From assembly GCA_017452785.1 (NCBI GenBank), contig JAFTLT010000019.1, positions 21,416 to 85,415 on the forward strand: a DNA stretch of 64,000 bases, read 5' to 3'. This document shows, piece by piece, positions 9,087 to 64,000 of this stretch. The stretch comes from Clostridia bacterium (GTDB taxonomy: Bacteria > Bacillota > Clostridia > Oscillospirales > Acutalibacteraceae). Below the pieces are notes generated by a model that saw nothing but the letters and a program-made list of their open reading frames with translations, searched no databases and had not been told where the DNA came from. A program made the translations under genes and the position numbers. Numbering within the stretch: the stretch's first letter is position 1; each line of letters starts with the position of its first letter.

Positions 9087-11240
9087 ATGAACAACATTAA
9101 AGAAAAAGCATTTGATATTTTCAATACGGCAAAAAGCTATTGGTTTACTCCGGCAAAAGGAAACTATATTCCTTATAAAGAGGTTGCCAGCCTTAGCGGC
9201 GCAGGTTTCGGTGTGCATTGGACAACCCTGCTTGCAACCACTATTTTTCTTGATGCGTCCAATTTCCTTGTTGGTGCCAGCATAGGTCTTAAGCCTATGG
9301 ATTTGCAGATTATGCTTATAGTTGCAAATCTTGTGGGTATACCCATGGGCATTTTCAGAGCATGGTACTATGACAATCACAGTCTTAAGGGAGGCAAGTT
9401 CCTGCCGTTTCTCAGGCGTACAGCTCTGCCCTTAGCAGTAGTGTCTCTTGTTTTTGTTTGGCTGCCTTATGAAAACTGGGGATATATAACAAAGGCCGTT
9501 GTAGTTGAAGCGATGTATCTGCTGCTTAATGTTTTTTTGTGCTTTTATAATGAGAGCTATACATATTTTCAGCAGATAATAACGCCGAATGCTCAGGAAA
9601 GAGCCAATGTAATGAGTATTTCTCAGGTGGTTTATTCCTTGGCTCCGACGATTACTAATCTGGTCATTCCTCTTGTTGCAGGGCTGACATGGGGTCTTAA
9701 CAACATCTGGACATACAGAGTAATATACCCTGCTTTCACTGTGGTGGGGCTCATTCTCAACACTATCTTTTTCCGCAAGGTTAAAGAAAGGCTCATTCTG
9801 CCTAAAAAGAAGCCTGACCCAATAAGAATAATTGATGCTGTGCGTGAGGTTGCAAAAAATAAATATTACTGGATAGTTCAGGCAGCAGCGTGGGTGGTTT
9901 TCCTTGAGTCGGGCTATGGCGTAGTTCTCGGCTGGTCATTTGTTTATTCCCATGACGGTCAGTATGCGGCATCGTTAGGTCTTGCAAATACTATTATAGG
10001 AAATGCTGCTTTGTGGTCAATGCTGCTTGCACCCTTTGCCATAAAAGCAATGGGCAAAAGAAATCTGCTTATAACTGCAAACTCGATAAACATCCTTGTT
10101 CTCATAGTTCTTTATTTTACATATAAAAATCTTATAGTTATCTGCGTCCTGTGGTACTTCAACACCTTCATAAACACCTTCTGGAATATAGTGCAGCACA
10201 ATATCAGTGCTGATATGAGAGACTATCATCAGTGGAAAACCGGCGTGAGAATTGACGGCCTTTTCGGCCCTCTTGGTATGATAGGCACTGTCATAGGTTT
10301 TTTCACAGGAATGTTCTATCCGTCAATTTATGAAAAGATGGGACTTTTAGAGGACTACAATGTTCTTTATGATGATGCAATGAGAAACAGCCTGTTTGAA
10401 GTACTCATTATCTGTTCTGCGGTTGGTGCTTTGCTTAATCTTATTCCTTTCCTCTTTTATGACCTGACGGAAAACAAGCATAAGGCATATGTTGATGTGC
10501 TTAAAATAAGGGCAATGTTTGAAAATTACGGTCTGGGTGTGCTTGAGGATGATGAGCTGGTTGAAGCTATGGAAATAATTCATATGACAAAAGAGCTCGA
10601 CGGCAAAGAAAAGCAGGCAGTTGATAAATCAGCACTTATTGCGGCAAAGCAGATGCCGAGGGGTACCGACGAAGAAAAGCAGCTCAGAGCTGAAGCTATA
10701 AGGCAGGCAAAAAGCGAAATTAAAGCTGTAAAGGAAAGAAATCTTGCAATAGAGCGAAACTATATAGTAATGGAAGACCTCAATAAGTTTTCGGGCGAAA
10801 CAGCAAGAATAAGGCTGGCTCAGGCAAACAGAACCTTAGCCTTAGGTTCTGTATATATTTATGATAACGAAAAGCAGGAGCTAAAACGGGCTAAGGCTAT
10901 GCCAAAAAGCACCAAGCAGGAAAAAGAAATCCGTTCAGATGCAATAAACCTTGCAAGAATGAAAAAGGAAGCGGCTGCTCTAATAAGAAAATACGGCGAA
11001 GAATGCCTCAAGGCTCCCGATGAAAGGATGAAGGAAGAAATTATAAACAGAGAAACTTCATCTTTTGCAGACAGTCTAAGACAAAGACGAGAGCTCAGAA
11101 AATATATGAAGGCAGAGTCTGTCTATATGAGAGTTACCAAGCCCTGCAGAGAAGCTGCTAACCTTATTGCTCAGGCAAATAATTACACACACGATGAAGA
11201 GCTTGAAGAAAGATATGCTCTTATATGTGAAAAAATATAA
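9087..11240 (+). CDS. MFS/GPH-type transporter with long repeat-bearing cytoplasmic tail
   Basis: This 717-residue protein is longer than usual for the glycoside-pentoside-hexuronide/MFS transporters (about 450-500). Residues 30-470 form some 12 membrane helices. From about residue 475 the protein is soluble, highly charged and helical. Two related blocks occur there about 82 residues apart: AKQMPRGTDEEKQLRAEAI (near 519) and AKAMPKSTKQEKEIRSDAI (near 601). The ATG follows AAGGAGAAGAG. The substrate is not visible and no sugar-catabolic gene adjoins it. The tail might be a regulatory or protein-binding module, which is inference from its composition. The gene is monocistronic, with a terminator at 11253-11288. 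Confidence 0.82.
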   Translation: MNNIKEKAFDIFNTAKSYWFTPAKGNYIPYKEVASLSGAGFGVHWTTLLATTIFLDASNFLVGASIGLKPMDLQIMLIVANLVGIPMGIFRAWYYDNHSLKGGKFLPFLRRTALPLAVVSLVFVWLPYENWGYITKAVVVEAMYLLLNVFLCFYNESYTYFQQIITPNAQERANVMSISQVVYSLAPTITNLVIPLVAGLTWGLNNIWTYRVIYPAFTVVGLILNTIFFRKVKERLILPKKKPDPIRIIDAVREVAKNKYYWIVQAAAWVVFLESGYGVVLGWSFVYSHDGQYAASLGLANTIIGNAALWSMLLAPFAIKAMGKRNLLITANSINILVLIVLYFTYKNLIVICVLWYFNTFINTFWNIVQHNISADMRDYHQWKTGVRIDGLFGPLGMIGTVIGFFTGMFYPSIYEKMGLLEDYNVLYDDAMRNSLFEVLIICSAVGALLNLIPFLFYDLTENKHKAYVDVLKIRAMFENYGLGVLEDDELVEAMEIIHMTKELDGKEKQAVDKSALIAAKQMPRGTDEEKQLRAEAIRQAKSEIKAVKERNLAIERNYIVMEDLNKFSGETARIRLAQANRTLALGSVYIYDNEKQELKRAKAMPKSTKQEKEIRSDAINLARMKKEAAALIRKYGEECLKAPDERMKEEIINRETSSFADSLRQRRELRKYMKAESVYMRVTKPCREAANLIAQANNYTHDEELEERYALICEKI

Positions 11241-17610: not shown

Positions 17611-17686
17611 AGTGTTCACTCCTTTGTGGGATAAGGATAGCATAAAAGTAAAAATAAATCAACTGAGTTCAAGGTGGGGAGAAAGT

Positions 17687-17781
17687 ATCTATTATCTATT
17701 CTTTATTATTTATTATCTATTATTTTGTAAAGTCGCAGGGGAGAGAATAGATAATAGATAACAGATAATAAATAATAAAAC
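17687..17781. repeat. AT-rich long inverted repeat
   Basis: Two arms built from TATTATTTATTATCT-type words, about 17692-17735 and 17749-17780, are inverted around a GC-richer centre (GTCGCAGGGGAGAG). The arms are internally repetitive (ATTATCTATT). The whole could form a cruciform or RNA hairpin. It sits between the minus-strand gene start at 17610 and the tRNA terminator. It looks like a dispersed intergenic repeat. Confidence 0.7.
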
Positions 17782-17782
17782 C

Positions 17783-17820
17783 AAAAAGAAAAGCCACACT
17801 TTCGTGCGACTTTTCTTTTT
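17783..17820 (-). terminator. Terminator after tRNA-Arg
   Basis: AAAAAGAAAAGCCACAC pairs with GTGCGACTTTTCTTTTT (two non-Watson-Crick positions), immediately downstream of the CCA end of the minus-strand tRNA. Confidence 0.75.
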
Positions 17821-17894
17821 GGCACCCCCTGCGGGAATCGAACCCACATCTAATCCTTAGGAGGGATTTATTCTATCCATTGAACTAAGGAGGC
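17820..17894 (-). tRNA. tRNA-Arg (CCT anticodon)
   Basis: The complement folds as a complete cloverleaf. The acceptor is GCCTCCT with AGGGGGT, the D-stem GTTC/GAAT, and the anticodon stem AATCC/GGATT around loop CTCCTAA, which gives anticodon CCT (reads AGG). The T-arm is GTGGG-TTCGATT-CCCGC. CCA is encoded at the 3' end (17820-17822). A sigma-A promoter lies upstream at 17947-17975 and a terminator follows. The gene appears to be expressed alone. Confidence 0.95.
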
Positions 17895-63487: not shown

Positions 63488-63579
63488 TTGCTCAGTCCTC
63501 TGAAAAAGTAATGGTGTAATTATATAACTGTTTTGCATCTTTGTCAAACCTATAGGCAAAAAACACGAAGCTAAAACTA

Positions 63580-63608
63580 TTGACAAACCTTATCTTAAAG
63601 TGTATAAT
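63580..63608 (+). promoter_or_regulatory. Full-consensus sigma-A promoter of the tRNA-like array
   Basis: TTGACA (63580-63585) and TATAAT (63603-63608) are both perfect and 17 bp apart. Start of transcription would be near 63615, some 18 nt before the first repeat. Such promoters are typical of stable RNA genes. Confidence 0.85.
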
Positions 63609-63632
63609 AGCAAGGCATTTCAGATTTAATAT

Positions 63633-63831
63633 CGAGGCGTAGCGCAGTTTGGTAGCTTTGAGCCTGACCGCCGCCGGTGGCGGATGAAGGGAAGGCGAAA
63701 AGGCGCAGCGGTCAAAATTTCTGTGTCGCACCAAGACACAAAGAAATTTTGGGAACCGCAAGAGTAAATCTGCTTTGGGAGCCGACTAAAGCAAAGATGC
63801 AGAATTTTCAGATAAAGAAAAAACTTAATAT
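63633..63831 (+). ncRNA. tRNA-Pro-like structured repeat, unit 1 (199 bp)
   Basis: The unit begins CGAGGCGTAGCGCAGTTTGG, matching the acceptor and D-arm of a bacterial tRNA-Pro. At 63769-63785 it has TCTGC-TTTGGGA-GCCGA, an anticodon arm with UGG anticodon, U33 and G37 (4 of 5 pairs). Between these are about 110 extra nucleotides with strong hairpins: CCGCC/GGCGG (63671-63683), GACCGC with GCGGTC (63666-63671 and 63708-63713), and AAAATTTCTGTGTC with GACACA...GAAATTTT (63714-63750). No T-arm or 3' acceptor follows, so this is not an ordinary tRNA gene. It probably makes a structured RNA or a tRNA-derived repeat. The function is unknown. Confidence 0.6.
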
Positions 63832-64000
63832 CGAGGCGTAGCGCAGTTTGGTAGCTTTGAGCCTGACCGCCGTCGTTGGCGGATGAAGGGAAGGCGAAAA
63901 TGCGCAGCGGTCAAAATTTCTGTGTCGCACCAAGACACAAAGAAATTTTGGGAACCGCAAGAGTAAATCTGCTTTGGGAGCCGACTAAAGCAAAGATGCA
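63832..64000 (+). ncRNA. tRNA-Pro-like structured repeat, unit 2 (cut by window end)
   Basis: It repeats unit 1 at an exact 199-bp offset over the visible 169 nt, with three substitutions. One turns C-G into U-G in the small CCGCC/GGCGG stem, one lies in that hairpin's loop and one is in the GGCGAAAA(G/T) loop region, so the fold is kept. The array continues past the window edge. An intact tRNA-Pro may lie further downstream. Confidence 0.6.

Follow-up and report, generated by a model that had tools for sequence, protein, structure and literature searches.

What is an array in which a proline tRNA gene begins twice and is completed in neither copy, and where does the genome that carries it keep a whole tRNA-Pro(UGG)? 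The question is raised by the right-hand end of the window (the whole 64,000-nt stretch of DNA analysed, G000:C25:21416-85415), the last base of which is also the last base of contig C25. Two tandem 199-bp units stand there (63633-63831 and 63832-64000; Tandem Repeats Finder score 729, 98% matches), preceded by a full-consensus promoter; both units and promoter had been part of the original prediction. The features of the array are as follows.

63580..63608, + strand: promoter TTGACA-N17-TATAAT (from sequence), the only good promoter of the array and putatively that of the downstream intact tRNA-Pro(UGG)
63633..63656, + strand: tRNA-Pro(UGG) 5' part of unit 1, which reaches past the D arm's end in 24 nt and matches the complete tRNA of contig C21 exactly
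63654..63765, + strand: element E of unit 1 (covariance model R1, 120.4 bits)
~63655-63704, + strand: outer helix P1 of E in unit 1, with inner hairpin P2 at 63671-63683 and hairpin P3 at 63708-63759 (structure and covariation)
63769..63782, + strand: anticodon-arm copy TCTGCTTTGGGAGC of unit 1 (sequence)
63788..63800, + strand: AAAGCAAAGATGC of unit 1, nearly the reverse complement of GCATCTGCTTT in the tRNA, pairing back onto the anticodon copy (sequence by eye, fold)
63801..63831, + strand: A-rich leader of unit 1, which recurs ahead of the complete tRNA on contig C21 (sequence)
63832..63855, + strand: tRNA-Pro(UGG) 5' part of unit 2 (sequence)
63853..63964, + strand: element E of unit 2 (covariance model, 110.9 bits)
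63968..63999, + strand: anticodon-arm copy and its reverse complement in unit 2, cut by the contig end (sequence)

Each unit runs in the same order: a tRNA 5' part, a structured insert of ~111 nt (which we call E), a copy of the anticodon arm, the near reverse complement of that arm, and an A-rich leader. The first 24 nt of each unit are identical to the 5' end of tRNA-Pro(UGG), while neither a T-arm nor a 3' acceptor follows the anticodon-arm copy and ARAGORN reports no tRNA at the array; the units are, as first proposed, tRNA-derived and incomplete. The left border of E is uncertain by a few bases, because its first three bases (AGC) are common to the tRNA part. Unit 2 stops at 169 of 199 nt, at the contig end, and over these 169 bp differs from unit 1 in three places: (i) 63674/63873 (C/T), where a C-G pair of P2 becomes T-G in the structure drawn from aligned copies, (ii) 63677/63876 (G/T), in the P2 loop, and (iii) 63702/63901 (G/T), an unpaired base in P1. 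Indeed, the earlier reading that all three changes lie in loops or keep pairing by G-U holds, as does that of stable hairpins in the insert: the unit folds more strongly than 200 shuffles (z -2.87), and E by itself more strongly still (z -3.74). Elsewhere in the window, 7-bp repeat arrays (17686-17777 and 17820-17894) adjoin tRNA-Arg(CCT), its only complete tRNA gene.

A complete tRNA-Pro(UGG), which the original prediction had suggested should be sought after the array, is present on another contig. Contig C21, in reverse complement, opens with GACTAAAG... and has an 18-nt exact overlap with the window's end; its start repeats 72 nt of the unit (the leader and the tRNA start) and continues into the complete tRNA. 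Judged by this overlap, C25 would join C21, and the array would then lie between the promoter and the complete tRNA-Pro(UGG). Two units, the second cut short, are visible up to the contig end.

An array at a contig end invites the explanation that it is an assembly artefact of a repeat. The genome is indeed a 74-contig draft of 89.8% completeness, and several other copies of E are likewise located at contig ends. However, the same layout (two E units, 203 bp apart, before tRNA-Pro(UGG)) lies inside the single 2.69-Mb contig of genome G435, two-unit layouts occur inside other contigs as well, and 37 copies of E are found in one finished replicon of Vescimonas. The layout is therefore no artefact, contrary to the refutation once envisaged, and an artefact could bear at most on how many units the window's array has; as a whole, this explanation is extremely improbable.

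Nor is a tRNA interrupted as if by an intron, another of the earlier suggestions, supported. Group I, group II and archaeal introns were all considered and rejected: the units are without a 3' half, the intact tRNA is separate, and no Rfam intron family matches over E. A T-box leader was likewise rejected. The motif GGGNACCGC presumably resembles a T-box bulge; the Rfam scan gave no T-box match over E, and in the 16 loci scanned no family of any kind overlaps it.

The nature of E becomes clearer from its distribution, which is that of a dispersed repeat. By blastn, the 199-bp unit is matched in 39 of 60 relatives. With the covariance model, E is found in 33 of the 35 genomes of the window's genus (209 matches) and, under stricter filters that lose weak matches, in 99/295 genomes and 59/149 genera of the sampled order and in 3/299 genomes of a phylum sample, one of the three being the window's own genome and one coming from its order. 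The finished genome of Vescimonas fastidiosa MM35 holds its 37 matches on one 861-kb replicon. An exact-pattern scan of named genomes returned 32 stretches from metagenome-assembled genomes called Clostridia, Oscillospiraceae, Eubacterium, Eubacteriales, Ruminococcus or Ruminococcaceae, and 21 of the 32 titles name deer, yak, sheep or goat samples. A phage-borne repeat was considered and rejected: searching with a narrow exact pattern of E gave 0 viral contigs. A looser search of phage records turned up three matches, all partial, in L201 (MT836623.1) and two more unannotated 'Bacteriophage sp.' records from human faeces. We recognised no description of the element in the open-licence literature searched.

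To define the structure of E, 38 copies were extracted and eight partial or near-duplicate ones left out, giving an alignment (A1) of 30. Two domains are common to all of these: an outer helix P1 with P2 inside it, and P3, a long hairpin that bears a bulge of three bases. Of 780 cells in this structure 97.6% are paired, and sliding the partners destroys the pairing. Covariation is likewise evident, with 12 of 26 pairs changing on both sides and 94 such cells against 26.9 in shuffles; further pair types are no more numerous than in shuffles. The element is ~111 nt long, with longer forms of ~218 nt that exist in genome G032, and is non-coding in the copies read. In the same genome (L124-L128, L134), the loop of P3 encloses a further palindromic repeat, so that E and palindromes make nested composites. 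A variant in genome G260, from another order (L045-L063), keeps the P1/P2 domain but not P3, its second domain being different; several of these variant copies sit between CCCCTCC and GGAGGGG arms.

Does this structure act as DNA or as RNA? G-U pairs make up 28 of 2,627 pairs in the helices of E and 57 of 666 in 30 neighbouring tRNAs (Fisher 2.7e-21, a value overstated because copies of E are related). Their rarity favours a hairpin of DNA over one of RNA. A slight lean in the other direction is that G-U pairs (28) outnumber A-C pairs (8), marking the strand that would be RNA. Non-coding, dispersed and built of conserved hairpins, E has the traits of a hairpin-forming mobile repeat. Those of a MITE are not apparent by eye: the aligned copies show neither terminal inverted repeats nor a constant short duplication.

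We then asked where E sits. A search of 95 loci gave 115 matches, of which 13 were repeated or edge-cut and were dropped, leaving 102 distinct copies with flanks. Two classes are associated with intact tRNA genes. In class A (24/102), the left flank is a tRNA 5' half and an intact copy of the tRNA lies downstream (Pro(UGG) in eight cases, Leu in 16). In class B (11/102), the right flank is a tRNA 3' half and the intact copy lies upstream (Met, Ser, Arg, Pro and Trp). A displaced tRNA fragment beside a regenerated tRNA, as is looked for at integrative elements, is hence found at 24 class A and 11 class B copies of the 102, and in all 35 E is on the strand of the tRNA. The points of entry are also constrained: E starts after tRNA nucleotide 20, in the D loop, in 16/16 class A Leu cases, while in the eight class A Pro cases it starts after nucleotide 21 in one and after nucleotides 34-36 in seven (D loop or anticodon loop).

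The tRNA halves appear to be home-grown. In 21 of 24 class A copies, the half-tRNA equals the neighbouring intact tRNA at 18/18 of its first bases, lineage-specific variants included; it was therefore not imported, unless gene conversion hides an import. Concerted evolution could likewise make a half-tRNA look local. The near reverse complement of the anticodon arm, read by eye in the window (AAAGCAAAGATGC), has counterparts among the class A and B copies, a set that did not include those of the window: a reverse complement of a tRNA arm, of at least 8 nt, lies in the flanks of 11/24 class A copies (0.32 expected) and 4/11 class B copies (0.05 expected), and is absent from 13/24 and 7/11, respectively. 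The remaining 67 of the 102 copies fall outside both classes. By eye, about twenty of these adjoin a tRNA half, and the DNA read around them contains no complete tRNA; the rest are in terminators and other repeats; the window's first copy is counted among the 67 because its complete tRNA is on another contig. Overall, targeting of tRNA genes is a strong trait of E in the genus of the window and is seen in other families as well, without being universal.

Comparison of orthologous loci shows a site with and without the element. In genome G011 (L022), E stands ahead of tRNA-Pro(UGG), while genome G017 (L184) has the same upstream DNA, promoter, tRNA and terminator without E. The upstream DNA of the two is identical at 272 of 300 bases, and G011 carries one clean extra block of 192 bp, between promoter and tRNA. 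Presence and absence at orthologous sites, the mark of mobility, is provided by this one clean pair. Three further genomes were compared by eye: G033 (L185) also looks empty at the tRNA-Pro(UGG) locus, and in G014 (L177) and G007 (L178) only the right end of E remains before the tRNA, a remnant of a deletion. E is also present in G008 (L141) at what appears, by eye, to be the window's own locus. Besides G435, tandem units are found in L067, L071, L080, L082, L103, L241 and L251, and E-E tandems in L034 and genome G010. Arrays before tRNA-Pro(UGG) recur in several genera, and the array layout is found in other families of the order too.

How might an intact tRNA behind such an array be made? 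Of 21 comparable class A loci, 19 have, ahead of the first half-tRNA, a promoter that agrees with the consensus at no fewer than 10 of 12 bases; none (0/21) has one between E and the tRNA, where in two of the 21 the gap is too short to scan. Going by promoter positions, the intact tRNA is probably made from the old promoter through E. The units would then be transcribed as a leader of the intact tRNA, because the only good promoter stands upstream of them.

Transcription through the array raises the prospect that it is a functional leader, a conserved regulatory or decoy RNA of tRNA-Pro(UGG) in which half-tRNA and E are kept by selection. The covariation in E, the recurrence of arrays before tRNA-Pro(UGG) in several genera and the single promoter upstream of the array are all in keeping with this. 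Against it, the orthologous loci described above are without an array (L184, L185) or hold remnants only (L177, L178); E accompanies many other tRNAs, upstream of some and downstream of others, and is found in other places too; G-U pairs are rare in E; and D-loop bases have been lost from several of the halves (L022, L040, L080). We regard a functional leader as very unlikely. The related idea in the original prediction, of a tRNA fragment recruited to a new RNA function, gained no evidence, the insert being a dispersed repeat, some copies of which are far from any tRNA gene's sequence context and outside tRNA genes altogether.

The explanation that we consider likely is that E is a mobile hairpin element that enters the arms of tRNA genes and other hairpins, that a tRNA half is duplicated when it enters a tRNA gene, and that the array arose by tandem duplication. 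E—about 111 nt of non-coding DNA in two hairpin domains—would move and insert as DNA, entering the D loop, the anticodon loop or the 3' half of tRNA genes in one orientation, as well as terminators and other palindromic repeats. Insertion into an essential tRNA gene is seen only where a tRNA half and its flank are duplicated beside E, a duplication that would be part of the insertion event itself. It would take two forms: (i) leader and 5' half beside E, with the intact tRNA downstream, and (ii) 3' half and terminator beside E, with the intact tRNA upstream. In both, the intact tRNA would still be made, in the first form from the old promoter and through E. The window would represent one insertion at tRNA-Pro(UGG) followed by a tandem duplication, for which the simplest route would be unequal recombination between the recurring segments of leader and 5' half.

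If this is correct, a mobile element without genes has, across an order of gut bacteria, found its way time and again into some of the most essential small genes while the cell survives, and the enzyme behind its movement should be findable. The element would offer a natural test of how DNA hairpins become insertion targets, would account for incomplete tRNA copies that annotation software may mistake for tRNA genes, and would show tRNA genes being transcribed by way of long leaders of repeated half-tRNAs. A bolder version strikes us as improbable: E would be active and gene-free, would attack tRNA genes at their hairpin tips while the DNA is single-stranded, and would restore half of its target by copying as a step of the insertion reaction, always rebuilding the essential tRNA. 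This would be a new insertion mechanism, with tRNA arms as its safe harbour.

The rival that carries most weight is that of integration scars, which we judge possible but unlikely. It holds that larger integrative elements (prophages or islands), whose tyrosine integrases cut tRNA loops and which bring a replacement tRNA or half with them, left the half-tRNAs behind as remnants of their attachment sites; E would be what is left of one end of these elements, or a mini-element that their integrases move. In two genomes tRNA-Pro(UGG) is split or truncated at the anticodon arm by elements with a tRNA-Pro of their own. In G435 (C1; L232, L254), the two E units are followed by two truncated, E-free tRNA-Pro(UGG) halves ending TTTGGGAGC and then by a tRNA-Pro(UGG) that is intact yet differs; two tyrosine recombinases lie nearby. 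In G005 (L253 = G005:C53:40000-50000; L196, L193, L252), where tRNA-Pro(UGG) is split over two contigs, a further tRNA-Pro(UGG), this one complete, and a pair of tyrosine recombinase genes come after its 5' part. Both patterns match tRNA-dependent lysogeny as set out in PMC10865867. The new tRNA in these two genomes is foreign and no E is needed, which is why the tyrosine-integrase reading is kept as a rival. Against it, the half beside E is of the local lineage in 21/24, whereas the tRNA brought into G435 differs; among the flanks read, integrases were seen only beside the E-free scars of G005 and G435; E also occurs in terminators and palindromes without any tRNA half; and it is the same ~111 nt in all of these settings. 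Attachment-site duplicates, the closest of the four original guesses, can be retained in the sense of duplicates left by insertions into a tRNA; the attachment site of an integrase belongs to the rival.

If E is mobile DNA, then something must move it. IS200-like (Y1_Tnp) transposases are found in 19 of the 35 genomes of the genus, the window's own not among them, and show no correlation with the number of E copies (rho 0.07). Reverse transcriptases, in 6/35, are uncorrelated as well (rho 0.24). Neither a resident transposase nor a reverse transcriptase is therefore supported as the mover over these 35 genomes, and a REP/BIME moved by RAYT was rejected on the same ground, since the transposase does not track E number. 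One reverse transcriptase match lies ~1 kb from a copy of E (G033:C55:8454-9098 and 10072-10183). Patterns of P3 halves, searched in eight genomes with odd spacings read, turned up longer loops and nested palindromes with no gene inside, and no longer, autonomous form; no integrase was seen within or next to any unit of E that was read (111-218 nt long). The mover would most likely be a recombinase or nuclease that works on the tips of DNA hairpins.

Other hairpins bear on this proposal. In only 10 of the 67 copies outside classes A and B, the flanks form an inverted repeat scoring at least 7 (2.9 expected). Flanks pair in 15 of 24 strong Vescimonas copies against 9.7 expected, a gain that is small because the copies share one repeat; by eye, 20 of the 24 sit at the tip of a GATG...CATC palindrome. 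Only one tRNA lies within 30 Vescimonas stretches. Insertion at palindrome tips is thus only partly supported as a general rule, and neither a constant target sequence nor a short target duplication was defined for E. At L035 (G002:C5:112427-112537), a CTTACTTTT/AAAAGTAAG hairpin holds E in its loop and is itself part of an apparently long, structured, non-coding stretch that has no Rfam match.

Short hairpin repeats are known from several other settings. The mitochondria of Allomyces carry double-hairpin elements, which are hairpin-forming mobile repeats, and the palindromic elements of Rickettsia are ~100-150-nt dispersed bacterial palindromes that lie mainly inside protein genes; to our knowledge, the latter have no known transposase. 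E is like these Rickettsia elements in being a dispersed bacterial palindrome of ~100-150 nt without a known transposase. With the repetitive hairpin-forming elements (RHE) of sponges and the Volvox and Allomyces repeats, it shares being short, non-coding, palindromic, dispersed, without a movement gene of its own, and also found inside RNA genes. It differs from the organelle repeats in being bacterial, in a two-domain structure that is conserved over an order, and in its fixed preferred points in tRNA loops, with one orientation and a duplicated tRNA half in each tRNA case. Indeed, fixed entry points in tRNA loops, and the half-tRNA that accompanies each such entry, are what make E distinctive. 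The RHE of sponge mitochondria and the palindromic repeats of Volvox organelles are described as hairpin-forming mobile repeats, with RHE in rRNA genes, in PMC2800124 and PMC2670323. Bacterial stem-loop repeats (SLS) are dispersed and mostly intergenic, according to PMC2267715. E resembles SLS and REP/BIME as a dispersed stem-loop repeat; unlike REP it is longer, has no evident GTAG-type end motif, and is not tracked by IS200-like transposases. Finally, PMC4383910, on genomic islands in tRNA genes, and PMC10865867, on tRNA-dependent lysogeny, describe site-specific entry into tRNA loops, a displaced fragment and a working tRNA. E shares with these systems the entry into a tRNA loop and the displaced tRNA fragment beside a working tRNA; it is unlike tRNA islands in that its units are ~110-220 nt and without an integrase, and in that 21 of 24 halves are of local origin.
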